IMG/VR virus record: IMGVR_UViG_3300020213_000065
Location: 1-37,084 of that record
Source of the DNA: a virus
Reading direction: 5' to 3' (one strand)
Length of the DNA: 37,084 bases
The stretch's first letter is position 1; each line of letters starts with the position of its first letter. The notes beneath the pieces are model-generated. The model worked only from the letters and a program-made list of their open reading frames with translations, was not told the origin of the DNA and ran no database searches. The position numbers were made by a program, and so were the translations under genes. This document shows, one piece after another, positions 973 through 21,898 of this stretch.

Positions 973-1421
973 CAGCTAAACAAAACACAACCACACAGCA
1001 ACTTAAACAAAAGAAGATTAAATTCCTTAAATATTTTAGTGAAGTTCCAGTACAGAAGTTAGCAGCAGCACACATCGGAATGAACGAAGATTCCGTTAGT
1101 AGATGGAAAAAAGACGATAAGGAGTTTGCGGAGAAAGTCGAACGCACAAAAGCTGAGTGGGTATTAAAAAACGTGAGAGAGGTAAAAGACAAGCAGTGGT
1201 TACTAGAGAAACTAACAAGAGAACACTTCGGAAAGGAGGAGACACCAAGTAGTAATACATTTGAACAGAACAATTACTACAACTTAACAGATGAACAACT
1301 TAGACAAGTCATTGACGCCAAACTCAGAAAGCTTGGCCTTACTGGAAGCGATATCATTAATGGAGAACAGGATGGCACAGAACCCGCTGAAGTACTCGAA
1401 GGCACACAGCAAACAGACTGA
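969..1421 (+). CDS. terS: Terminase small subunit (putative)
   Basis: A 150-residue protein directly upstream of the large terminase. The N-terminal third (LAAAHIGMNEDSVSRWKKDD, residues about 30-50) is a helix-turn-helix of the kind small terminases use to bind the packaging site. It is followed by charged helices (residues 50-85) that would form the oligomerisation core, and a polar C-terminal tail. Length and gene order fit the TerS family, and the assignment rests on HTH plus context rather than a strict sequence signature. It starts in an ATGA overlap with the preceding gene and overlaps the start of the large subunit by about 50 bases. Confidence 0.75.
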   Translation: MTAKQNTTTQQLKQKKIKFLKYFSEVPVQKLAAAHIGMNEDSVSRWKKDDKEFAEKVERTKAEWVLKNVREVKDKQWLLEKLTREHFGKEETPSSNTFEQNNYYNLTDEQLRQVIDAKLRKLGLTGSDIINGEQDGTEPAEVLEGTQQTD

Positions 1422-3687
1422 GTTCTTTGCTTCAGACAAGCCCATTAGGGTGCTCTTTTGGGGCAACAGGGTGGGTAAATGTTTACCTCTAGATGCCCCT
1501 ATTTTTATGGCTGACGGTTCAAAAAAGCAACTTGGTGATATAAAAGAAAAAGATAAGGTGCTAGCGGTAGATCTAGTCACATTAAAAACGGTTGAATCCG
1601 AAGTGTTAGAGATTAGTAGAGCAGGAAAGAAAACTGTATATCGATTTATTTTTGAAGATGGCGGAGAAGTTATTGCCTCAGAAGAACATGAGTTTCCTGT
1701 TAGGTTCGGAAGCGGCAAGCCAATTATTAAGAGGCGTGTTAGAGCTTTTCGTGACAGGAAGGTAAGCGTATCAAAAAAAACAAGATTTATATCTCCTCTA
1801 GAAATTCGGACATACCCTCAAAGCGCGCCGTTTATTGACCCTTACTTGTTGGGATTTCTTCTCGGTGATGGTTGTATCTCAAAACAAAGCATTCGTTTTA
1901 CTTGCGCTCAGCCCGATATACTTGAAAGAGTAAGCACAATTTTACTAAAAAATAATTTTGGTATAACTAAAATAGGAAAGTTTGATTATCACATTACAGA
2001 TAAGTTGTGGAAACCTACAAAAAGTCATAGGCTTAAAATCTTATTGTCAACTTATAACTTAAATGTTGATAGTCACCACAAATTTATTCCTAAAGTTTGT
2101 TTTAGCTGGAATAGAAGTAATAGGCTTTTGTTACTGTCAGGTCTAATTGATACAGACGGGTCATTAAAAGAGTATGTTACTGTATCTGACCTATTGGCTG
2201 ATGACTTTCGCAGACTTGTATCTTCGGTTGGAGGTAGGTCAAACATTAAGCATTATCAAACGAAGAACCGTATTTATTGGAGATTAAACGAGTTGTTGCC
2301 ATTAAGTGCTGATTATAAACAAATGATAAGTAAAAGACAGCCACTTTATACAGATAGAATTGTTAGGTCTGTTGAGGTTGTTGGTGAGGTTGAGTGTGGG
2401 GATATTACTATTGCTCATAAGGATCATGTTTTTATATCTTATGACAGCGTTATTACTGGTAATACAGAAGGGTGTGCTCAAGAGGTAGTGCGCTATGCTT
2501 TAGCAGATAAACCCAATGTTCATGCACCTATTGAGATATGGTGTGCATGTCCATCATACGATGTGCAGAAGGAAACTACCCAAAAGAAATTAGAGAGATA
2601 TATCCCTAAAGATGCCATAGACGGAAATCCTGTCTACATCAAATCTGGTACATGGGGGGAGATAAAGCTTAAGAACGGCACAAGGATTAACTTTAAATCA
2701 TATGAACAAGGCAGAGAGAAGTTTCAGGGAGCAGGGAAGAGATTAATATGGTTTGATGAAGAACCACCTAAGGATATCTGGGAAGAGTGTGTAGTGAGAC
2801 AAGAAGCAGGACAGCCGCTAGATATCATCATGTCAATGACACCCATTAAGGGTATGACTTGGGTCTATGATGACTTATTTATGCAAACAGGCAGAGAAGA
2901 TCTATTTATCTCTGAGGCCTCTTGGGACGATAACCCGTGGCTCACTGACAGACAAAAGGAGCTGATGGCTGCTAACCTTTCAGATGAAGCAGTGGAGGTA
3001 AGGCGTTTTGGTAAGTTTGTTAAAAGGGTAGGGCTTGTTTGTAACTGGTGGGATAGAGAGAAAAACCTAATGGAGTATGACGTAACCCCACCATATGACT
3101 ACTATGAAGTATTAGACGGTGGGTTTTCTGATCCAGCAGCATGGTTACTTTTAGGTGTTGATAATGACGGAGATTTGCATGTTGTTGATGGATTTAGAGA
3201 GAAGGGGTTATCTGATGGGGAGATTGTTTCCAGACGGAATCAAAAGAGTACAGGTCTAAGAATCATCAAAGGATGGGTAGATTATCCAGATGAGAGATTA
3301 CAGGGCAATCTCCAGAAGCTGGGGATGAGTCTTGAGCGTGTAGAGAAGGTAGTTGGTGATACGCAGGGTTGGGATGAGCTTGTAGCTGAGAAGTTAGCAG
3401 AATATGGAAAGATGCAAAGAGGAACAGGCAAGCCAAGGTTGTTCATCAATAGAAAGCTTGACTGGTTAATCCAAGAGATAGAAAACCTTACCTGGTTAGA
3501 GATTAAGAGGCAGGGGGCGAGCGGGATAGAGATAGTCCCTAAGTGGGACGATCATAGAAGATTTGGACACCACTTCGATGGATTAAGAGCTCTTGGCTAT
3601 TTCGTAACCTCGTTTACTAAAAAGTCCGATGATACAAGCAAGGTAGCTACAACCAACAGGCAGATGCAGAGCAAGTGGAGTATTTAG
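1372..3687 (+). CDS. terL: Terminase large subunit, interrupted by an intein
   Basis: This is the ATPase/nuclease that packages DNA. The P-loop reads GNRVGK then, after a 328-residue intein, T-E-G, so the intein splits Walker A between Lys and Thr. Walker B is IWFDEEPP and the coupling motif lies in MSMTPIKG. The RNase H-like nuclease has acidic residues in LDGGFSDPA, VGDTQGWDE and HHFDGLRALGY. The precursor is 771 residues and the spliced protein would be about 443, a normal TerL size. I chose ATG 1372 because GGAG lies 6 bases upstream and because the in-frame ATG at 1291 would overlap terS by 131 bases; ATG 1360 is another option. The intein must be removed for activity, because the P-loop is otherwise broken. 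Confidence 0.92.
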   Translation: MAQNPLKYSKAHSKQTEFFASDKPIRVLFWGNRVGKCLPLDAPIFMADGSKKQLGDIKEKDKVLAVDLVTLKTVESEVLEISRAGKKTVYRFIFEDGGEVIASEEHEFPVRFGSGKPIIKRRVRAFRDRKVSVSKKTRFISPLEIRTYPQSAPFIDPYLLGFLLGDGCISKQSIRFTCAQPDILERVSTILLKNNFGITKIGKFDYHITDKLWKPTKSHRLKILLSTYNLNVDSHHKFIPKVCFSWNRSNRLLLLSGLIDTDGSLKEYVTVSDLLADDFRRLVSSVGGRSNIKHYQTKNRIYWRLNELLPLSADYKQMISKRQPLYTDRIVRSVEVVGEVECGDITIAHKDHVFISYDSVITGNTEGCAQEVVRYALADKPNVHAPIEIWCACPSYDVQKETTQKKLERYIPKDAIDGNPVYIKSGTWGEIKLKNGTRINFKSYEQGREKFQGAGKRLIWFDEEPPKDIWEECVVRQEAGQPLDIIMSMTPIKGMTWVYDDLFMQTGREDLFISEASWDDNPWLTDRQKELMAANLSDEAVEVRRFGKFVKRVGLVCNWWDREKNLMEYDVTPPYDYYEVLDGGFSDPAAWLLLGVDNDGDLHVVDGFREKGLSDGEIVSRRNQKSTGLRIIKGWVDYPDERLQGNLQKLGMSLERVEKVVGDTQGWDELVAEKLAEYGKMQRGTGKPRLFINRKLDWLIQEIENLTWLEIKRQGASGIEIVPKWDDHRRFGHHFDGLRALGYFVTSFTKKSDDTSKVATTNRQMQSKWSI
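1480..2463 (+). mobile_element. LAGLIDADG intein in the terminase P-loop
   Basis: This is a 328-residue in-frame insertion from Cys (TGT 1480) to Asn (AAT 2461-2463), with Thr as the first downstream extein residue. Block A is CLPLDAPIFMADGS, block B carries the conserved His in ASEEHEF, and the C-terminal blocks are ECGDITIAHKDHVFIS and SVITGN. Two LAGLIDADG helices are visible, LLGFLLGDG at intein residues about 123-131 and LLSGLIDTDGS at about 219-229, so a homing endonuclease domain is present. The penultimate residue is Gly instead of the usual His, and block B lacks the usual Thr; both are uncommon but known to be tolerated in some inteins. Boundaries are exact because removal restores GNRVGKT. 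Confidence 0.92.
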
Positions 3688-3734
3688 CTACTCACCTCCA
3701 CCATCATCATGGTCATCGTAAGTAGGCTGGATCA

Positions 3735-3761
3735 AATACTTAGCCCATTATGGGCTGTATT
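3735..3761 (+). terminator. Hairpin after the terminase gene, possible terminator
   Basis: AATAC, AGCCC, a 5-base loop, GGGCT and GTATT form a 10-pair stem with a two-base bulge on the 5' side. It lies between terL and the first leaderless promoter. There is no clear T run after it, so intrinsic termination is uncertain; it may instead stabilise the terL mRNA end. Confidence 0.4.
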
Positions 3762-3777
3762 ATACCAAAAACAGCTA

Positions 3778-3808
3778 TTGATAACCTCTTCTCCTACTAA
3801 ACTACACT
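3778..3808 (+). promoter_or_regulatory. Late phage promoter, copy 1 (leaderless)
   Basis: TTGATAACCTCT at 3778 is followed by TACACT at 3803-3808. The gap between TTGATA and the hexamer is 19 bases, and exactly 6 bases separate the hexamer from ATG 3815. The transcript should begin at or next to the start codon. Confidence 0.75.
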
Positions 3809-3814
3809 CTTTCT

Positions 3815-5080
3815 ATGGCCAATGTGTTCGGTTATAACATCAATAATCCAGTTACAGGTAGTTCTAATCCATTTGAGTTTGGTGTTTCAGAGGGTATTGC
3901 TGGTGCTATAGGTAGACCAACAAATGACCTTATCCCTAATAATGTCCAGAATACAATAGCTAGAGCTAATCCCGTAGCAGGAGCTGTGAACTTAGGCTCT
4001 AAAGGAGCACAAAGCTTCAAGTCAGCTCCTACCAGAACCTCAGGGGTATTAGGCACAGCAACTAGTAGTGGAGGGAGTGGTGCAACACCAGGATCAAATC
4101 CAGGGCCAAACCCTAATCAGGGGATGAGCTTTGATGATGTATATAAAAAGTATTATCAAGGATGGGACAGAGCCGCAGCAGAGCCAGATTTTAAGGCAAC
4201 AGGTGGACCAGCAGCAGCTCGCCAGTCAGGCCCTTCACAAGATGACATTATGCGAGAGATTGAGGGACTATATGGTGGGTCAAACGACTATCTAAACCAA
4301 GCAGAGGGTGCAATCAGAGCAGATTACCCAAACGCTATGGCTGAGGCAGAATCAATCTTTAATACCAACCTTTCCTCTCTGGGTAATTCAAAACAATCAG
4401 CCTTTGATTCACTAACCCAACAGTCCAACAAAGCAACCTCAGCCAAAGAAAACGCTCTAGCAGCGGGTAGAAGACTCTTCCAAGAGCAGCAGATGGGTGC
4501 AAACCAGAGATTTGGTGGTTCATCTTCAGCAGGTCAGGCTTTTTCAGAGATTCAAGCTAGAGAACAGGCCAGACAGTTTGGAGAAACAGGGAGACAGCAT
4601 GCAGATATAACTAATCAGATTGAGACTCAAAGAAATAATGTAGAACGAGAGTTCCAGACAGGCAAACTACAGCTTGAACAACAGAAACAGTCAGCCGTTA
4701 GTCAGGCTACCAGAGACTTTCAGAACAAACTACTCCAAATCTCCCAAAACAGGGCACAAATTGGTGAGGCTAAAGCACAAGCAAGACTAGGTGCACTACA
4801 AGAGCTAAGAAACCAGGTCTTTTCTATTGAGCAACAGAACACACAGTTTAATCAACAGTTGTCTATGATGAGAGAACAGGCTAACTTGCAGCTTCAAAAC
4901 TTTGGCCAGTCAGCTTCAGGAGCAACAAGCCAGGCTTCAAGCTTAGTAAGCGGATATAACCCACCGATTACATCTCAATATGGTGCAGGGGCAGGTTTAG
5001 GACAACAGCAACCACAACAACCCCAGATGATGGGTCAGATCTCAACCTCAAGAAGACCTGATGAGTATCAATTTGCTTAG
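3815..5080 (+). CDS. Internal virion / ejection protein, glutamine-rich coiled coil
   Basis: The 421-residue product has a Gly/Asn/Ser-rich N-terminal third and, from about residue 150 to 365, a long helical region very rich in Gln, Glu, Arg and Ala. That region is typical of coiled-coil proteins of the internal core or ejectosome of short-tailed phages. The C-terminus is Gly/Gln-rich and disordered. It is followed by a lytic transglycosylase and a very large protein, the usual company of ejection proteins, so a role in crossing the host envelope during DNA delivery is inferred. No enzymatic motif is visible. It starts leaderlessly from its own late promoter. Confidence 0.55.
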   Translation: MANVFGYNINNPVTGSSNPFEFGVSEGIAGAIGRPTNDLIPNNVQNTIARANPVAGAVNLGSKGAQSFKSAPTRTSGVLGTATSSGGSGATPGSNPGPNPNQGMSFDDVYKKYYQGWDRAAAEPDFKATGGPAAARQSGPSQDDIMREIEGLYGGSNDYLNQAEGAIRADYPNAMAEAESIFNTNLSSLGNSKQSAFDSLTQQSNKATSAKENALAAGRRLFQEQQMGANQRFGGSSSAGQAFSEIQAREQARQFGETGRQHADITNQIETQRNNVEREFQTGKLQLEQQKQSAVSQATRDFQNKLLQISQNRAQIGEAKAQARLGALQELRNQVFSIEQQNTQFNQQLSMMREQANLQLQNFGQSASGATSQASSLVSGYNPPITSQYGAGAGLGQQQPQQPQMMGQISTSRRPDEYQFA

Positions 5081-13903: not shown

Positions 13904-14302
13904 ATGTATGATCCACTAGCCTTTTTTGAAGGCCCAAGCGAGGAAGAGCTTTTAACGATTGTTTTCTTAGACAAACTAGCTACCAGACTAGGCAACCCCC
14001 CCGACCTTACATCACAAGCAGGACTAAAACTTATGGATGGAGTTATAGGGGTCTGGATGAAACACTTTCCTCAGGAAGCCAAAGACTGGGCACATGATGT
14101 AAAGATAGATCTGGAAAACGAGAAGTCGCTAAGGGATCTTAATAAAGACTCATTGGGACTATTTAACCCAGCTTCTTATCCCCCAATGCTTTTCAAGCTC
14201 ATCAAAGCTATGTTCCCTGGTATGAAGGTTCAGCAAAAACAGGTCTACACCAAGCTAATCCAACTATACCCAGATTTATTTAAAACCAGTAACTACATAT
14301 GA
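13904..14302 (+). CDS. Hypothetical helical protein at the head of the glycan cassette
   Basis: A 132-residue, mostly alpha-helical soluble protein with no recognised domain. It resembles small head-completion or assembly factors in size, and it is the first gene of the transcript that carries the glycosyltransferases, with an ATGA overlap to the next gene. I prefer ATG 13904 over the in-frame GTG at 13880, because the GTG lies upstream of the predicted transcription start. A structural role and a regulatory role for the cassette are both possible. Confidence 0.5.
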   Translation: MYDPLAFFEGPSEEELLTIVFLDKLATRLGNPPDLTSQAGLKLMDGVIGVWMKHFPQEAKDWAHDVKIDLENEKSLRDLNKDSLGLFNPASYPPMLFKLIKAMFPGMKVQQKQVYTKLIQLYPDLFKTSNYI

Positions 14303-16083
14303 AGATTAATTGCTGCCTGATAGTTAAAGATGACACCGAGTACCCAAAGCTTGTTGATGCTGTTAGCTCTGTCCATCCCTTTGTAGAGGGCGTATATATC
14401 ACCACCACAGGTAAAGAAACCTCAAAGATCAAGACCATAGAGGGTGTTCACCATTCACATTTTGACTGGTGTGATGATTTTGCAGCGGCTCGTAACTTCA
14501 ACTTCTCCCAAGCTCCCAAAGATACAGAGTGTCTCTTCTGGATGGACGCAGATGACATCCTGGTAGGCGGTGAACAACTGCAAAAGTTGGCACAGCTTAG
14601 TAAGAAATATAGCAAGGATGTGGTTTTTCTCCCATATTGGTACGCCTGTACATTTGATGGAGAGCCGTCACTTAAAAACCTCATCGATATTGATGTTACC
14701 CAGATGAGAGAGAGGTTACTTAGGCCAGGGGTAACAACCTGGAAAGGGAGGCTCCACGAGACTCCTGTGCCTACAGAAGGAGTTAAAAACGTCTATACCT
14801 CTGTTAAATACACCGACAACCCTACTAAAGAAGGGGAATTTTCCATTGCCCTACTGCATACCGCCCAGGAGGTTGATCTACCAGAAAAGATGGAGAGAAA
14901 CAAAAGGATTTTAGAGCTTCAACTGGAAGAAGAAAGAGCCAAGGGCGAAGCAGACCCCAGAACGCTTATTTATCTTATAAAGATCTACGCAGAGTGCGGG
15001 ACCGAGGAGGAGTGGCAAAAGGTTTTGGTGATGGGGGAAGAGTATCTAACTAAATCAGGCTGGAATGAAGAGAGGGGATCAGCTTGGGAGAATATGGGGA
15101 TAGCCTATGGATCACTAGGAGATAGCAAAAAGGCAGCAGATTGCTTTATGAACGCTATCAGGGAATGGCCGCACCAGATTATCTATTATCTAAGACTTGC
15201 ATCAGCTTTCTACAACCTCAAGGACTATGAAGCAGTCAAACACTGGTTAGGGATCGCATCAGGTATGGATATAGATAAAAGGCTAACCTCTGGAACAACC
15301 AACTTTAAGGGTATCAAGGTGATGTTTGCCAAGCTACTACTTAATATGAACTATCACGCTGAGAAGGACACTAAAAAAGCCCTTGAAGCAGCACAATTAC
15401 TATATAAGGAAGATCCTTCTGAGGAGAACAAAGAACAGCTAATCTTTTTACAGGACATAAATGCTCTAAACGAAGCTTGTGCCAATGTTGACCACCTAAC
15501 CGAGTATCTTGATTCTATCGGAAAGGATGATGTAATTACCCAGATTCTTGACGTATTACCCGAGGCCATTACCTCCCAACCCTTCGCCCATCGCATCCGT
15601 CAGAAGGTGGCAAAACCCCGTTCGTGGGCATCGAACGAGATCTGCTACTTTGCTAACTTCGGTGGGAAGTTCTTTGAACCTTGGGCTGCGAATAGCCTGG
15701 AGACAGGCATTGGTGGCTCCGAGACTGCCGTAATAGAGCTGTCTAAGGAATGGGCAAAGATGGGATACAAGGTGACGGTTTACGGAGACCCTGGTGAAAG
15801 CTGTGGGGATCACGAGGGCGTCACCTATCTCCCCTGGTATGAATTTAACCCTAAGGACTTTTTTAACATCTTTATCCAGTGGAGGAGCTGGCATATGGCA
15901 GGAAAGATAAAAGCTAAAAAGTTTTTAGTAGACCTTCACGATATCTACTCAGTAGTTGATCTAAAACCAGAACAGCTAAGAGCAATAGACAAGATCATGG
16001 TAAAATCCAAATACCAGAGAAACCTTGCACCAACAATATCAGATGAGAAGTTTCAAGTAATTAGTAACGGGATACGAATATGA
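14299..16083 (+). CDS. Glycosyltransferase GT2 with TPR repeats and the first half of a GT-B domain
   Basis: The 594-residue protein has three parts. Residues 1-170 are a GT2 (GT-A fold) domain with INCCLIVKDD at the start and the metal-binding DADD at about residue 80. Residues about 190-400 are TPR-like helical repeats (AWENMGIAYGSLGDSKKAAD). Residues about 435-594 look like the N-terminal Rossmann half of a GT4-type GT-B enzyme, with GIGGSETAVIELSKEWAKMG and KIMVKSKYQRN, ending at VISNGIRI, where such a protein would normally run on into its second half. That second half is encoded by the next gene. It would transfer sugars to phage or host targets; the acceptor is unknown. Confidence 0.75.
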   Translation: MKINCCLIVKDDTEYPKLVDAVSSVHPFVEGVYITTTGKETSKIKTIEGVHHSHFDWCDDFAAARNFNFSQAPKDTECLFWMDADDILVGGEQLQKLAQLSKKYSKDVVFLPYWYACTFDGEPSLKNLIDIDVTQMRERLLRPGVTTWKGRLHETPVPTEGVKNVYTSVKYTDNPTKEGEFSIALLHTAQEVDLPEKMERNKRILELQLEEERAKGEADPRTLIYLIKIYAECGTEEEWQKVLVMGEEYLTKSGWNEERGSAWENMGIAYGSLGDSKKAADCFMNAIREWPHQIIYYLRLASAFYNLKDYEAVKHWLGIASGMDIDKRLTSGTTNFKGIKVMFAKLLLNMNYHAEKDTKKALEAAQLLYKEDPSEENKEQLIFLQDINALNEACANVDHLTEYLDSIGKDDVITQILDVLPEAITSQPFAHRIRQKVAKPRSWASNEICYFANFGGKFFEPWAANSLETGIGGSETAVIELSKEWAKMGYKVTVYGDPGESCGDHEGVTYLPWYEFNPKDFFNIFIQWRSWHMAGKIKAKKFLVDLHDIYSVVDLKPEQLRAIDKIMVKSKYQRNLAPTISDEKFQVISNGIRI

Positions 16084-17612
16084 GTATTACGCCTAAGAAT
16101 CACAAACTAGTATTCGCGAGTAGCCCAGATAGAGGCTTAGATGTACTGCTAGATATGTGGCCTGAGATAAAGGCTAAATTCCCTGATGCAACTTTAGATA
16201 TAGCCTATGGTTGGGTTCTTTTTGATATGGTTGCGAGTGGCAACCCTGAAAGAATGGCATGGAAAGAAAAGATTATGGAACAGATCAAACAACCAGGGAT
16301 TACAGATCATGGACGTATCGGGAAGAAAGAACTTAAGGCCTTAAGAGAATCTTGTGGGATATGGGCATATCCGACCTACTTTACCGAGATTAACTGTATC
16401 ACAGCCCTTGAGATGCAAAGAGAGGGAGTTGTACCTGTAACTATGGCTCTAGCCGCCTTAAAAGAGACTGTGGGAGCTGGAGTATTAGTTGAGGGGGATA
16501 TCTACGATAGGGAAACAAAAGAGAGCTACTTAAAGGAGCTGTTAGCCTTAATGGGTGATGAGGATAGGTGGAGTGAGGAGCAGGCTAAAGGAATAGAGTT
16601 TGCCAAAGTATATGACTGGTCAAAGATAGCCAAGGATTGGACCCAAGTTTTTGAACCTAACCCACAGGATATTAAAGTATCCATTGTTTCTCCTACAAAC
16701 AGGCGTGGGTTCTGGAACATCATGGCAAATAACATAGCCAATCAAACATATAAAAACATTGAGTGGGTGATAGTTGATGATTATAAGCAGAACAGGGAAG
16801 AGACTGCTAAAGAGTATGCTAAAAAGTATAAAATAGACATCAAGTACTACAGAGGAAAACCTAGGAAAGTAAAAAGAACCTACGGGCTTGTTAACGCCAA
16901 TAATACAGGGTTACTTCACTCACGAGGTCAACTGCTTGTCATACTTCAAGACTTCATTCTAATGCCTGAATCGGGCGTAGAACAGCTTGTATTACTGCAT
17001 AAGCTTAATCCCAACGCCTTAATTGCTCCATGTGATGAATACTACGCTCCAAAGATCAAACCTAACACTGAGTCTGAGGATTGGTTTGACGGAGAGCTTG
17101 ATGTACAAGGTGAGTTTATGAGAGGCAACATCAGGCTCAAAAACGAAGGGGTCAGGGAGTCAACTAACCCATATGAGTTTGAGCAGAACTATTGTGCAGT
17201 ACCCAAAGCTATTGCCCAAGATCTTGGGGGATGGATCGAAGCGTTTGATGAGGGGTTAGGTTTCGACAATACGGAATTTGCATATAGGGCTTTATTGCTG
17301 GGATACAAGTTGTTAGTTGATGACACAAATGTAGCGATGTGCATAGATCATTGGAATACGCTCGTGGGCACACCCGAACATGGATTAGGCAGGGAGCGAC
17401 GATTAAGCGACCCGAGGTTTTTATGGGTACAGCAAATGATTGAAGACGGGAAGCTCCCCCTGAAGATGACACAAGCACTTAACGACCAAATTGAGTTGAT
17501 ATATGAGATGCCTGAAGAGGTCCCTACGAAAGATGCAGTCAAGTGGATGAAGGCAAATATGGGGAATATAGCCTTGGGATGGATGGAGAAATACAACGAT
17601 GGATTTAAATAA
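16080..17612 (+). CDS. Second half of a GT-B glycosyltransferase fused to a GT2 domain
   Basis: A 510-residue protein starting in an ATGA overlap with the previous gene. Residues 1-200 look like the C-terminal Rossmann half of a GT4 enzyme: FASSPDRGLDVLLDMWPEI at the start, then HGRIGKKELKALRESCGIW and the ExxACG-like TEINCITALEMQREGVVPV. Residues about 205-480 are a GT2 domain (VSIVSPTNRRGFWNIM, VIVDDYKQN, and EAFDEGLGFDNTEFAYR). The start codon lies exactly where the GT-B linker would be, so active enzyme may need both proteins to associate or a fused product. Confidence 0.72.
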   Translation: MSITPKNHKLVFASSPDRGLDVLLDMWPEIKAKFPDATLDIAYGWVLFDMVASGNPERMAWKEKIMEQIKQPGITDHGRIGKKELKALRESCGIWAYPTYFTEINCITALEMQREGVVPVTMALAALKETVGAGVLVEGDIYDRETKESYLKELLALMGDEDRWSEEQAKGIEFAKVYDWSKIAKDWTQVFEPNPQDIKVSIVSPTNRRGFWNIMANNIANQTYKNIEWVIVDDYKQNREETAKEYAKKYKIDIKYYRGKPRKVKRTYGLVNANNTGLLHSRGQLLVILQDFILMPESGVEQLVLLHKLNPNALIAPCDEYYAPKIKPNTESEDWFDGELDVQGEFMRGNIRLKNEGVRESTNPYEFEQNYCAVPKAIAQDLGGWIEAFDEGLGFDNTEFAYRALLLGYKLLVDDTNVAMCIDHWNTLVGTPEHGLGRERRLSDPRFLWVQQMIEDGKLPLKMTQALNDQIELIYEMPEEVPTKDAVKWMKANMGNIALGWMEKYNDGFK

Positions 17613-17655
17613 GTTTTGCAAATGTGGTTGTGGGGGCTTGGCTACTAACATATGA
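17599..17655 (+). CDS. Possible 18-residue peptide with CKCGCGG motif
   Basis: ATG 17599 lies within the end of the previous gene and opens an 18-codon frame whose TGA overlaps ATG 17652 of the epimerase. The product has four closely spaced residues CKCGC followed by Gly, similar to the N-terminus of some phage HNH proteins. It may be a relic of a lost HNH gene, a coupling peptide for the epimerase, or chance. Confidence 0.25.
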   Translation: MDLNKFCKCGCGGLATNI

Positions 17656-18557
17656 GGATTCTAATTACAGGAGACAAGGGGCTTGTCGGAACAAACCTTG
17701 AAGAGAGGCTATCCGCTAAGGGTCATGTTGTTTACGGCAATCTAGTGGAGCTTAAAGAGCCTCATCTAGTCGAGGAGCTTTTTCAGGCTTTAAAGCCTGA
17801 GGTTGTATATCATCTGGCAGCTAATGCAGCAGAAGCAAGGGGTCAGATATCCCCTATTGATATGACTCAGAACAATATCGGGATCTTTGTAAACGTTTTA
17901 AGATCGGCTATCAACAACGGAGTCAAAAGGTTTATCTATACCTCGTCTGTTGCGGTATATGGTGAGGCTACAGTTCCCTACAAGGAAGATGGAGAAACCA
18001 TACCAAAGGATGTTTATGGAGTAAACAAGCTAGCTTGTGAGCAGATACTAAAGATCATGGCTAAGGTATATAACTTTGAGTATGTCATCTTTAGACCTCA
18101 TAACATCTATGGACCCCACCAGAACATGAATGATCCATATAGGAATGTTGTTGCCCTTTTTATGCGAAGGCTGATAGAGAAAAAGCCATATAAGCTGTTT
18201 GGCGAGGGGCAGATGAGGAGGGCTTTTTCCTATGTTGATGATGTAGTTGATGTTTTAGTCGGGGCCTTGGACGAGAAGTTTACCAACAAAACAATTAATG
18301 TAGGTTCGGATAATGACATAAGCATTAAGGAGTTATCGGATCTACTGCAAAAGATTACTGAAAAATCTGTTTTTATTGAGTATGAACCTGCAAGACCACA
18401 AGAGGTCTCAGTGTTTCTTGCCGACCATTCCCTGCAAAATAGTTTGATTACCTATAAAGAGACTCCTATTGAGGAGGGGCTTAAGAAAACATGGGAATGG
18501 GTTCAAAAGACTGAGCTAGGGGAGATTGAAACAAAGGAGAATGAAATAAATGTTTAG
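17652..18557 (+). CDS. NAD-dependent sugar epimerase/dehydratase (extended SDR)
   Basis: A 301-residue extended short-chain dehydrogenase. The dinucleotide-binding GDKGLVG is at residues 7-13, the catalytic Ser is in YTSSVAVYG (about 98-99) and the Tyr-Lys pair is in YGVNK (Tyr122, Lys126). HNIYGPHQN and the GEGQMRRAFSYVDDVVD segment are typical of UDP-glucose 4-epimerase-like enzymes that act on nucleotide sugars. Substrate cannot be told from sequence. With the downstream DegT enzyme and the glycosyltransferases it would supply an activated unusual sugar. Its 3' end overlaps the next gene by 8 bases. Confidence 0.85.
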   Translation: MRILITGDKGLVGTNLEERLSAKGHVVYGNLVELKEPHLVEELFQALKPEVVYHLAANAAEARGQISPIDMTQNNIGIFVNVLRSAINNGVKRFIYTSSVAVYGEATVPYKEDGETIPKDVYGVNKLACEQILKIMAKVYNFEYVIFRPHNIYGPHQNMNDPYRNVVALFMRRLIEKKPYKLFGEGQMRRAFSYVDDVVDVLVGALDEKFTNKTINVGSDNDISIKELSDLLQKITEKSVFIEYEPARPQEVSVFLADHSLQNSLITYKETPIEEGLKKTWEWVQKTELGEIETKENEINV

Positions 18558-20502
18558 ACCAGGAATAGATCGTATAGCCTATGGTGGTGCGATGATCGGG
18601 CTTAGAGAATACTTTGCTATTGCCAAGGTGATTTTCTCACAAGGCGGTAAAAGATGGACTGTTGGACCTGAATCAGTAGCTTTTGAAAAAGAGCTAGCGC
18701 AGGTTGCAGGGGTAAAACACGCAACAGTTGTTAACTCAGGCTCTTCAGCCTTACTTGTAGCCCTTGCAGCACTTAAGCTTCCAAAAGGCTCAAAGGTCAT
18801 TATCCCAGCTTGTAACTTCCCGACAGCCTTTAACGCCATCATCCAGAACAACCTGACCCCTGTTGTTGTTGATATAGACCTTAAAACCCTGCTTGTAGAC
18901 CTAAAACAGGTTGAGTATGCCGTTAAGTGTTATCCAGAGGTTAAGGCGGTCATAGCTGTAAATATTGCAGGAAACACAGTCGATCTTCCAGCCTTAAGAA
19001 AGATCATGGGTAAAAGAAAGATCGTTTTAGATAACTGTTTGGCAGAAGGGACTTTAATAAAAACAGACAACGGAGATGTTCCCATAGAGAAAATTGAAGT
19101 TGGAGATAGGGTTCTTACTAGAAAGGGCTATAAGAAAGTATTGAGAGTCATTCCAAGAGGACAAAAAGATGTTATTACAAGATTTGGAGTTACCGCTACA
19201 CCAGATCATCCATTTAGAACAACCAAAGGAAATAAGGTATTCTCAGAACTACAACCATCTGATATACTATACTTATGCAGGGAACAAGAATCATTTACAA
19301 CGGAAACAAATATTATAGATACCCAAAGTCAAAAAACAGGGACAAAAGGGCATATTGGCATTGTTCGAGTAAAAGGAATGGATATTTACACCGCCACTTG
19401 TGGGAAGATAGAAACGGATCAATACCTAAGGGATACTTTATTCACCACAGAGATGGAGATTCACTCAATAATAAAGTCGAAAACCTTGAAGCAATCACTC
19501 CAAAGCAGCATTCTCAGTTACATTTCAGAGAAGATGGGAGATTGGAAACAGCGAATACAAACCTTAATGCAGCTAGAATCGAAGCTGCAAAATGGCACAA
19601 GTCTGAAGTTGGAAGGGAATGGCACAGTAGACAAAGTTTGGCTGGATGGAAAACTCGTAAAAAACACGAAAAAGAATGTATTATCTGCCATAAAAAATAT
19701 CTCACATACTGGAAAACTAAATCAATCTATTGTTCAAGAAGGTGCAAAGCACAGGGTCAGAGTTTACGACTTAGAGGTTGAAGATGCACATGAGTTCTTC
19801 GCAAATGGATTGCTTGTGAAAAACTGTGATGGCTTTGGCACAACACTTAATGGTCAGTACGTTGAATCTTTGGCTGATGTAGCCTGCGTATCTTTCCATG
19901 CAGCTCATATTATCACTACAGGTGAGGGTGGAGCAGTACTTACAAATGATGAAGAGTTAGGACAAAGAGCCACCAAGCTTCGGGAATGGGGCAGGGCTTC
20001 AGGCACAGACAGGATATATAAATACCCTGGCTTTCCAGATGACTACAAGGAAAGATATGTGTATGAGGAAATAGGCTGGAATATGAAGCCTTTAGAGCTT
20101 CAGTGTGCTATGGGCAGAGTACAACTAAGAAGGATTGAAAGCTTTAAGGAGGCCAGAAGACAAAACTACTACAAGCTTTTTAACATCTTTCATGACTTAC
20201 TTAAATTTCAGACTATCACCAGAATTCCTCATTCTGAGATCTGTTGGTTTTCCTTTCCTCTTCTGGTAAAAGAGAACAGAGGTAAGGTAATGGCTGAGTT
20301 TGAGAGAAACAACATTGAGTGCAGAACAATATTCTCGGGCAATATCTTAAGACACCCTGCGTATAAGAATACCGAACATATCCGAGTAGGAAAGTTACCC
20401 AATTCAGATATTGTGATGCGTGATGGAATGTTTTTAAGCTGTCACCCATCCTTAACTGATGAGATGATTCAGTTTATAGGGAAGGTTGCAAAAGACATAT
20501 GA
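18550..20502 (+). CDS. DegT/DnrJ-family sugar enzyme with His at the PLP-lysine site, carrying an intein
   Basis: The precursor is 650 residues, and splicing would give 387. NSGSSALLVAL (residues 62-72) and the Asp-Asn-Cys-Asp joint (VLDN then CDGFG) are DegT/DnrJ/EryC1 landmarks. In the segment normally written S-F-x-x-x-K before T-x-G-E-G-G, this protein reads SFHAAHIITTGEGG, so the Schiff-base lysine is replaced by His (precursor residue 453, spliced about 190). That exchange is known in ColD and RfbH-type enzymes, which remove the 3-hydroxyl instead of transferring an amino group. The Cys cluster of the Fe-S type is not visible near REWGRASGTDR, which favours the ColD type. Most likely role: 3-deoxygenation of a keto-sugar nucleotide. 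Substrate is unknown. Confidence 0.78.
   Translation: MFRPGIDRIAYGGAMIGLREYFAIAKVIFSQGGKRWTVGPESVAFEKELAQVAGVKHATVVNSGSSALLVALAALKLPKGSKVIIPACNFPTAFNAIIQNNLTPVVVDIDLKTLLVDLKQVEYAVKCYPEVKAVIAVNIAGNTVDLPALRKIMGKRKIVLDNCLAEGTLIKTDNGDVPIEKIEVGDRVLTRKGYKKVLRVIPRGQKDVITRFGVTATPDHPFRTTKGNKVFSELQPSDILYLCREQESFTTETNIIDTQSQKTGTKGHIGIVRVKGMDIYTATCGKIETDQYLRDTLFTTEMEIHSIIKSKTLKQSLQSSILSYISEKMGDWKQRIQTLMQLESKLQNGTSLKLEGNGTVDKVWLDGKLVKNTKKNVLSAIKNISHTGKLNQSIVQEGAKHRVRVYDLEVEDAHEFFANGLLVKNCDGFGTTLNGQYVESLADVACVSFHAAHIITTGEGGAVLTNDEELGQRATKLREWGRASGTDRIYKYPGFPDDYKERYVYEEIGWNMKPLELQCAMGRVQLRRIESFKEARRQNYYKLFNIFHDLLKFQTITRIPHSEICWFSFPLLVKENRGKVMAEFERNNIECRTIFSGNILRHPAYKNTEHIRVGKLPNSDIVMRDGMFLSCHPSLTDEMIQFIGKVAKDI
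19036..19824 (+). mobile_element. Intein in the DegT-family gene
   Basis: This is a 263-residue in-frame insertion from Cys163 to Asn425 with Cys as the first downstream extein residue. The N-terminal splicing block is CLAEGTLIKTDNGDVPIEKI, block B is VTATPDHPF, and the C-terminal blocks are VRVYDLEVEDAHEFFANG and LLVKN. The penultimate residue is Lys rather than His. The middle (intein residues about 80-230) is low-quality protein sequence rich in Thr, Ser and Lys with no endonuclease motif in this frame. A different frame of the same DNA encodes an HNH endonuclease. Removing the intein restores LDNCDGFG, so the borders are exact. Confidence 0.9.
19275..19781 (+). CDS. HNH homing endonuclease nested out of frame inside the intein
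   Basis: The 168-residue frame (phase differs from the intein) has a full HNH architecture. YNGNKYYRYPKSKNRDKR is near the N-terminus, GYLHRHLWEDRNG follows, FIHHRDGDSLNNKVENLEAI is the HNH core with its His-His, Asn and the later His in KQHSQLH, and a C-terminal Cys4 element holds CIIC and YCSRRC. The gene has its own ATG, and TATACT (19263-19268) lies exactly 6 bases upstream of it, as in the leaderless promoters elsewhere, although no good -35 is seen. It probably cuts intein-less alleles so the intein spreads. The host intein frame stays open all through it. Confidence 0.8.
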   Translation: MQGTRIIYNGNKYYRYPKSKNRDKRAYWHCSSKRNGYLHRHLWEDRNGSIPKGYFIHHRDGDSLNNKVENLEAITPKQHSQLHFREDGRLETANTNLNAARIEAAKWHKSEVGREWHSRQSLAGWKTRKKHEKECIICHKKYLTYWKTKSIYCSRRCKAQGQSLRLRG

Positions 20503-21212
20503 TTGTCTATTATCGTCTTTGTTCAATAGCTTCAACTAACCCTTCGCCTATCTACCAAGAAGATAAATTCAGGTTAAACAAGCTATGTCTTAAATCCTTT
20601 GTGCAAGCTTTTAAGGATGTTGAGAATCTAGAGATTGTATTTCTTGCTGATTACTGTGGGGAAAGAGAGGAGGAAATGATAAAGGATCTATGTAATCCCT
20701 TTAATTTTTCCTTTCCTATCAAATACACCTATCTTCCCTTAAGCTTGGGGATTAATGAAACAGCCTTGAAGCAGTGGGAGTTAGCATCAAAGCAGGACGA
20801 TGAGATAATTCTTTTTCTGGAATGTGACTACCTCTGGAATCCTGATATTGACGTTAATACATATATAGAAGCAGTCAAGACATTAGGGCTTGTTTCACCA
20901 TACGATCACCCTAACTTTTACAGGCTAAGAGAGCTTCATAGCAAGGAGTGTGAAATAGAGCTTGTATCAGACTATCACTTCAGGTCTGTAGAACGAAATA
21001 CCCTCACTTTTGGGCTTAGGAAGGATGTATTGCTAGCTAATCTGGATATCTTTAACAAGTATGGATATTTAGATGGTGATACATGGTATGAGATCAAAGC
21101 CAGAGGCCAAAACCTTTACGTTCCTATCCCGAGCTTTGCTACCCATATGGTTGTAGACAACCTAGCCCCTGGTATTGACTGGGAAAAGATATGGACAACC
21201 CAAACCTCATAA
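20499..21212 (+). CDS. Glycosyltransferase-like protein (GT-A fold)
   Basis: A 237-residue protein starting in an ATGA overlap with the DegT-family gene. It has an alternating strand/helix N-terminal half, a FLECDYLWNPD segment near residues 106-116 that resembles the metal-binding site of GT-A enzymes, and YHFRSVERNTLTFGLRK later. The overall form fits a small nucleotide-sugar glycosyltransferase acting in the same cassette as the two larger ones. The acid cluster is Glu-Cys-Asp rather than Asp-x-Asp, so activity is not certain. Confidence 0.6.
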   Translation: MIVYYRLCSIASTNPSPIYQEDKFRLNKLCLKSFVQAFKDVENLEIVFLADYCGEREEEMIKDLCNPFNFSFPIKYTYLPLSLGINETALKQWELASKQDDEIILFLECDYLWNPDIDVNTYIEAVKTLGLVSPYDHPNFYRLRELHSKECEIELVSDYHFRSVERNTLTFGLRKDVLLANLDIFNKYGYLDGDTWYEIKARGQNLYVPIPSFATHMVVDNLAPGIDWEKIWTTQTS

Positions 21213-21898
21213 AACCTCAATACTCGGTCATTATGCTGATCTTCCACAGGACACCAAAGCTTATGGAGATGGCTTTTGATTGTGCAGCCTCAGTTAAAAA
21301 CCATTCCAAAGATTACGAGTTCATCATTGTAGATAACGGATCAACTGAAAGATATGTGTGGGAAAAAGAGTGCGACACCTACATTAGGTTTAATCAGAAT
21401 ATGGGGATATCGCATGGCTGGAATACAGGATTAAGGGTAGCTCGTGGCAAGTATAAGGTCGTTATTGGTGATGATGTTCTAGTTAGAGAAGGTTGGCTTG
21501 ATGCGATGGCAGAGGCGATGGAGATGCCAATGGCAGGGATGGTTAACCCACATGTGGAACACTTACCACCAGGGCAGGGGATCGTTGAGGATTATAAATG
21601 GCCATCTGGTGCATGTTTTATGCTAACTCAGAAAGTTATTGACAGGGTAGGATACTTTGACCAGGATACATACTTTCCCTGCAACTTTGAGGATCATGAC
21701 TACTGGACAAGGTTACTCAAAGCGGGCTTTAAGATATATAAGAACCACGCTATGACTGTCCGGCACAAGGAAGGGCAAACGCTCCACGCCCCTGATCTAT
21801 CCAAGCACTTTAACGAGATGAAAAGACGCTTTATGGCAAAACATGGCTTTGATAATCAGGATGTATTCTGTGGTGACAAACCCTTTCCCTTCACTTAG
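21191..21898 (+). CDS. GT2 family glycosyltransferase
   Basis: A 235-residue GT-A enzyme. Family marks are SVIMLIFHRTPKLMEMAFDC at the start, IIVDNGS at residues 45-51, NQNMGISHGWNTGLRVARG, the IGDDVLV metal site at about 92-98, and the late FEDHDYWTRLLKAG segment with Glu-Asp-His-Asp. It overlaps the previous gene by 22 bases and closes the glycan cassette, since a new late promoter begins one base after its stop. It would add a sugar in the same pathway; donor and acceptor cannot be read from the sequence. Confidence 0.8.
   Translation: MDNPNLIKPQYSVIMLIFHRTPKLMEMAFDCAASVKNHSKDYEFIIVDNGSTERYVWEKECDTYIRFNQNMGISHGWNTGLRVARGKYKVVIGDDVLVREGWLDAMAEAMEMPMAGMVNPHVEHLPPGQGIVEDYKWPSGACFMLTQKVIDRVGYFDQDTYFPCNFEDHDYWTRLLKAGFKIYKNHAMTVRHKEGQTLHAPDLSKHFNEMKRRFMAKHGFDNQDVFCGDKPFPFT

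Follow-up and report, generated by a model that had tools for sequence, protein, structure and literature searches.

Inteins with an HNH endonuclease gene nested out of frame: a viral DegT-type aminotransferase gene and its relatives

The interrupted DegT gene and the reading frame within it

The DNA analysed here is the entire 37,084-base IMG/VR virus record IMGVR_UViG_3300020213_000065 (hereafter the window). The element in question is an intein that interrupts its DegT-family aminotransferase gene and contains, in another reading frame, a predicted HNH endonuclease gene; all features of the locus lie on the + strand. Exteins and intein are encoded by a single uninterrupted open reading frame (ORF; 18550-20502, 650 amino acids (aa)), whose ends matched the Pfam family DegT_DnrJ_EryC1 with an E value of 9e-76. 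The N-extein (18550-19035, ending in ...IVLDN) is that of a DegT/RfbH-type pyridoxal phosphate aminotransferase and matched the family when tested alone (E 1.2e-33). The C-extein (19825-20502), starting with CDGFGTT, matched positions 147-355 of the same profile. The 263-aa intein between them (19036-19824) was recognized by the Hint_2, Intein_splicing and intein_Cterm profiles. It begins with CLAEGTLI, ends with ANGLLVKN, is followed by Cys, and sits in a conserved ED/DN^CD motif of the enzyme (DN^CD in the window).

The original prediction, made from the sequence alone, had placed a complete HNH gene out of frame within this intein, and ORF and Pfam evidence agreed with it. The ORF (19275-19781, 168 aa) runs from ATG to TGA wholly within the intein, in the +2 frame relative to it, (19275-18550) mod 3 being 2. 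Its product, a predicted homing endonuclease, matched HNH_3 (E 7.1e-16) and the HNH family phrog_15471 (E 6.5e-21). As had also been anticipated, searches of the intein's own frame with Pfam/PHROG-type profiles gave no endonuclease match. The HNH frame is closed just upstream of the ATG by a TGA (19260-19262) and is open from 19263. Its terminal TGA (19779-19781) is formed by the block-F codons Val (GTT) and Glu (GAA), a placement common in the family described below.

The splicing residues of a class 1 intein, C1 and C+1, are both present in the window, as are the block B sequence TPDH and the terminal Asn. Among 85 relatives, C1, a Cys, Ser or Thr at +1 and the final Asn were found in 85/85, and TxxH or SxxH in 84/85. 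In the AlphaFold model of the window intein, built from 51 aligned members after removal of rows from named phage and plasmid records, residues 1-80 and 239-263 had predicted local distance difference test (pLDDT) scores of about 94-98. The first segment (19036-19275, pLDDT 96-98) comprises the N-terminal splicing blocks A and B with the conserved C1 and TxxH, and the second (19750-19824, pLDDT 94-98) the C-terminal blocks F and G, which gave a hidden Markov model (HMM) score of 55. The model has a Hint fold, with the gp41-1 intein 6qaz as the best PDB match (Foldseek, E 2.2e-6). Most of residues 86-232, one helix excepted, scored below 50, so that the overlap read in the intein frame (19291-19731) is predicted to be a mostly disordered linker; it is also poorly conserved. 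The HNH model, in contrast, was ordered end to end (pLDDT 95.6), and the catalytic His/Asn and the four zinc-binding Cys residues of the Cys4 tail were conserved in 53-56 of 56 sequences. Since the Hint ends and the HNH protein are ordered and the overlap is mostly disordered in the intein frame, the overlap appears to encode an enzyme when read in +2 and a loop when read in the frame of the intein. Judged from these sequence features, both products look functional.

Relatives with the same layout and a second nested family

A search with the full-length 650-aa protein detected no viral relative, and the HNH protein and the intein were then searched apart. When proteins of isolate phages were searched with the HNH sequence, matches were found inside the annotated terL gene, encoding the terminase large subunit (TerL), of Tetrasphaera phage TJE1, Acinetobacter phage Highwayman and Rhodobacteraceae phage LS06-2018-MD07. 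In each of these the HNH ORF lies in +2 of an intein-containing TerL ORF, and it is absent from the gene list of all three records. Standard annotation hides the layout: terminase annotations conceal a nuclease. The same +2 nesting was found in a 'Hint domain-containing protein' of a Halobacterium plasmid.

Viral and genome contigs were scanned with an HNH alignment, and loci were classified by HMMs for HNH and for both intein ends. All locus counts are lower bounds and apply to the HNH and intein subfamily on which the survey was based. The HNH-driven scan gave at least 86 continuous nested cases, all those listed being in +2, and an intein-driven scan at least 79, again with 79/79 of those listed in +2. 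Combined, the overlap that the original prediction had proposed to seek among related inteins and HNH proteins was found at a minimum of 165 loci (at least 138 clusters at 95% nucleotide (nt) identity), and 165/165 listed loci had the HNH in +2 of one unbroken intein ORF. A scan with a narrow alignment of the intein N-terminal splicing block alone, in which the HNH was not used, yielded at least 17 close relatives. The HNH was in +2 in all of those listed, in one case as a decayed remnant: this 131-aa mini-intein (L231:3001-3393), with what is left of the HNH start in the other frame, is apparently a deletion derivative of the nested element that lost the HNH and kept the intein. No HNH in frame with its intein was found among the surveyed loci of this subfamily.

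The nested composite occurs at several insertion sites and in unrelated hosts, some of the loci being on contigs assigned to Archaea, Patescibacteria, Bacteroidota, Nitrospirota, Actinomycetota and Myxococcota. Most of 71 representative N-exteins belonged to terminase large-subunit families (Pfam, PHROGs), and four were DegT; by site and profile the DegT hosts are the window, L028, L029 and L058. Insertions into TerL occupy several neighbouring positions of the DHxxDAxRY nuclease motif, and those into DegT lie at ED[NAC]^C or DN^C. The DegT gene at L029:2686-5853 carries, beside the nested-HNH intein, a second long insertion in its C-terminal part (C fragment of 599 aa), probably another intein. 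Between L032 and L053 the exteins differ at 45% of residues and the N-halves of the inteins at 6%, a sign of horizontal intein movement.

At seven loci (L066, L067, L115, L118, L119, L121 and L125) the TerL intein is in two ORFs around the HNH gene, and these may be natural split inteins. L075 and L116, with apparent single-frame breaks in the N half (decay or sequencing error), were not counted as split. Free-standing HNH relatives also exist, often beside terL, and most of them have stops in the corresponding intein frame. Relatives with stops across the region, which had been named in advance as telling against a nested gene, thus do occur, but as a minority of split or decayed forms.

In a tree of 106 HNH sequences nested, free-standing and split forms were mixed. 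The nested label required 13 changes, at least eight of them forced by well-supported branches, and a single origin of nesting could therefore not be shown. The original prediction had a free-standing HNH gene entering a mini-intein in a shifted frame. The part concerning the overlap of an intact-looking intein with an intact HNH gene held, but a local, single event does not fit an arrangement that is old, widespread (at least 138 clusters) and mostly found in TerL. As to the direction, the interspersed free-standing and split forms fit either the entry of a free HNH gene into an intein or the escape of a nested one, and either may have taken place.

A second family (L233-L238) consists of 337-aa TerL inteins that are unrelated to the first and occupy a different site. 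Their nuclease, a double zinc ribbon plus HNH (PF01844, E 1.4e-4 in L237), is nested in +1; in L237 the intein spans 3001-4014 and the nested HNH 3050-3973. In the more divergent pairs of this family the aa difference was 0.25-0.32 in the nuclease frame versus 0.55-0.65 in the intein frame. The presence of a different HNH in another frame of another TerL intein indicates that the layout arose at least twice.

Selection on both frames and initiation signals

Persistence of the open intein frame beyond chance, part of the original prediction, was borne out. When the HNH gene of the window was recoded at random with synonymous codons, the intein frame stayed open with a probability of 1.7e-4 (window codon usage) or 2.3e-3 (codon usage of the host gene), and chance openness is excluded by the relatives, 165/165 of those listed being open in the same frame. 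Calculated per element, openness after synonymous recoding was about 1e-3 in +2 and about 3e-11 in +1, which accounts for the ease of nesting in +2. The notion that nesting could occur in +2 alone was rejected, because the second intein family has its nuclease in +1.

Four close relatives (L038, L042, L043 and L049; 86-92% nt identity) allowed comparison of the two frames over the same DNA. The HNH proteins differed at 0.05-0.10 of aa positions and the intein frame at 0.14-0.30, with substitutions concentrated at HNH codon position 3, which is position 2 of the intein codons. In close pairs the linker thus diverges faster than the HNH protein, and the lower divergence of the HNH frame indicates that HNH is the constrained protein in the overlap, whereas the intein frame needs mainly openness. 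Selection acts on both frames and keeps that of the intein open.

Signals for HNH expression were analysed in 128 representatives (<90% nt identity). As a null model, the upstream intein codons were recoded at random with the intein protein and the codon usage of the host gene kept. The HNH start codon is ATG in 115/128. Shine-Dalgarno (SD) matches of at least 5 nt were found in 21/128 (11.3 expected, P 1e-4). Sigma70-like boxes located 5-7 nt from the start and scoring at least 9 of 12 were found in 26/128, as against 8.3 expected, and boxes scoring at least 10 in 15/128 (2.0 expected); none of 300,000 simulations attained either sigma70 count. L002 and the window had been seen before the sigma70 test was devised, and kinship among the loci makes the P values optimistic. 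No locus combined an SD match of at least 4 nt with a sigma70-like score of at least 9. Promoter-like arrangements include TTGACA-17-TATACT-6-ATG in L136 and L219 and TTGACA-17-TACACT-6-ATG in L002.

In the window, a putative -10 box TATACT (19263-19268) lies exactly 6 nt upstream of the HNH ATG, as the original prediction had pointed out, and the family-level excess lends this position weight; it is shared with L002, L028, L029, L058, L086, L136 and others. A putative -35 box, TTCTCA (19240-19245; 4/6), precedes it by 17 nt. At the other end, the HNH stops cluster 15 or 19 codons from the intein end and are mostly built of conserved block-F codons, the commonest placements being V|E or V|D (GTT GAA giving TGA), Y|N (TAT AAT giving TAA) and Y|D (TAT GAT giving TGA).

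Interpretation and comparison with known systems

In our judgement the locus is very probably a mobile intein whose homing endonuclease is encoded by a separate, fully overlapping gene instead of an in-frame domain. The composite is real and conserved, and the following mechanism is well supported by its sequence. In the host frame, translation would give the DegT N-extein, the Hint N-half, a largely disordered linker of ~150 residues, the Hint C-half and the C-extein; the two Hint halves would fold as a unit and splice the aminotransferase. Translation of the same middle DNA in +2, from the HNH ATG, would give a zinc-binding HNH homing endonuclease. In the window this start would most likely be served by a sigma70-like promoter located within the SDILY codons of the intein and yielding a leaderless message, and in other members by a Shine-Dalgarno sequence. 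The nuclease would then cut intein-free copies of the target gene and thereby initiate homing.

Several observations weigh against this interpretation. The penultimate residue of the window intein is Lys where His is usual. A penultimate His is common but not obligatory in inteins, and departures are known elsewhere; among the 85 relatives the position was occupied by His in 54, Ser in 22, Lys in 4 and others in 5. The best PDB match of the HNH model, I-HmuI (1u3e), is weak (E 0.16). The -35 box of the window is weak and not significant alone (P 0.07). Finally, no intein-free allele of this DegT gene was found in a near relative as a sign of recent homing of the window copy.

Other explanations were weighed against the same data. 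The HNH protein might arise through a programmed frameshift out of the intein frame and would then be fused to the N-extein and the Hint N-half: overlapping ORFs on one transcript could be joined by a shift, and in a few loci (e.g. L017 and L078) the HNH frame is open far upstream. However, a stop in the HNH frame lies at a median of 12 nt 5' of the start and within 60 nt in 114/129, leaving almost no room for such a product, and the prevalence of ATG at the chosen starts, with SD or promoter signals above the recoding expectation, makes frameshifting improbable. We consider it still a little less probable that the insertion is not a working intein and its product is retained as a loop that the enzyme tolerates. 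This has been proposed for ShiLan, an out-of-frame HNH insertion devoid of splicing motifs (PMC11855218), and the penultimate Lys of the window would agree with it; yet every splicing block is present, blocks and remaining catalytic residues are near-invariant across the family, the ends model as a Hint fold, and the insertion interrupts a conserved active-site motif.

A role of the HNH protein in phage DNA packaging with TerL, in place of homing, deserves about the same low credence. Most relatives are in or beside terL, and some phages use HNH proteins encoded near the terminase for packaging (Kala 2014, cited in PMC4422536), but the window and three other loci have the element in an aminotransferase gene, and the deletion derivative L231 has kept the intein without the HNH. 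Displacement of an in-frame HNH domain by two indels, through sequencing or assembly error, would be conceivable for one metagenomic record taken alone. Paired indels are nevertheless not the cause, because complete isolate genomes, including those of phages TJE1 and Highwayman, show the same layout; with the same offset in at least 165 loci and an HNH gene with its own start and stop, we regard the chance of such an artefact as negligible.

Beyond the reading of the locus as an intein with a separate overlapping nuclease gene, we lean slightly towards a more general view. Out-of-frame nesting would rank, alongside the in-frame nuclease domain and the mini or split intein, as a third standing architecture among mobile inteins, with at least two origins (HNH_3 nested in +2 and a zinc-ribbon HNH in +1). 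It would uncouple the nuclease from expression of the host protein through signals hidden in intein codons, leave the splicing domain with a disordered loop only, and may be a route to split inteins. A large family of viral and proviral elements has retained, over great divergence, two unrelated and apparently working proteins in two frames of one DNA, a strongly replicated example of same-strand gene overlap that is conserved. Because promoter or SD sequence, start codon and splicing residues can be mutated largely independently, the model lends itself to direct tests.

Some further features of the window were noted. The DegT gene lies amid epimerase and glycosyltransferase-like genes (14299-21898), which suggests a phage-encoded glycan-modification locus. 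The TerL gene of the window (1291-3687) has an intein of its own, whose LAGLIDADG domain is in frame; one phage therefore has both intein architectures. The 9-mer GATAACCTC occurs in nine + strand copies (3780, 5086, 11941, 13865, 21901, 22650, 26321, 26993 and 28980), mostly ~35 nt 5' of a start codon, and is likely a phage regulatory or RNA-processing signal.

In textbook inteins the homing nuclease is part of the same polypeptide. The window element resembles canonical large inteins (PI-SceI type) in its Hint splicing fold, its location in a conserved host motif and the position of the nuclease in mid-intein, but its nuclease, instead of being a domain read in frame with the intein, is encoded by a separate +2 gene that overlaps the intein and has its own start and stop. 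Fractured genes and split inteins whose halves flank an endonuclease gene were reportedly described by Dassa in 2009. Relatives such as L066, L118 and L119 likewise have a free-standing endonuclease gene between intein halves, whereas in the window the halves are not on separate ORFs: one continuous 650-aa ORF runs through the nuclease gene. I-HmuI of phage SPO1, the nearest solved fold, resides in a group I intron and is without a second-frame coding constraint.

The mycobacteriophage intein survey PMC5050341 cites Dalgaard 1997 for an HNH intein of the canonical kind, and out-of-frame nested HNH genes go unmentioned in the passages searched. No description of a widespread nested family was found in the open-access literature; a prior description elsewhere is possible. 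The nested-HNH intein family is a new variant of mobile intein with two precedents. A one-line remark of 2015 (PMC4422536) mentions a putative intein-encoded HNH out of frame within TerL of brucellaphages and gives no wider family, two-frame selection or expression signals. The second precedent (PMC11855218, 2025) describes the out-of-frame HNH insertions ShiLan and Pacc40, which have no splicing elements, and poses their mode of translation as a question. Like the present elements, these are HNH ORFs out of frame in an insertion that is open in the host frame. Unlike them, the present family has a full Hint intein with complete splicing blocks, occupies several host genes and carries promoter or SD signals tested by recoding, which offers a sequence-based answer to the question of how such hidden HNH genes are translated.
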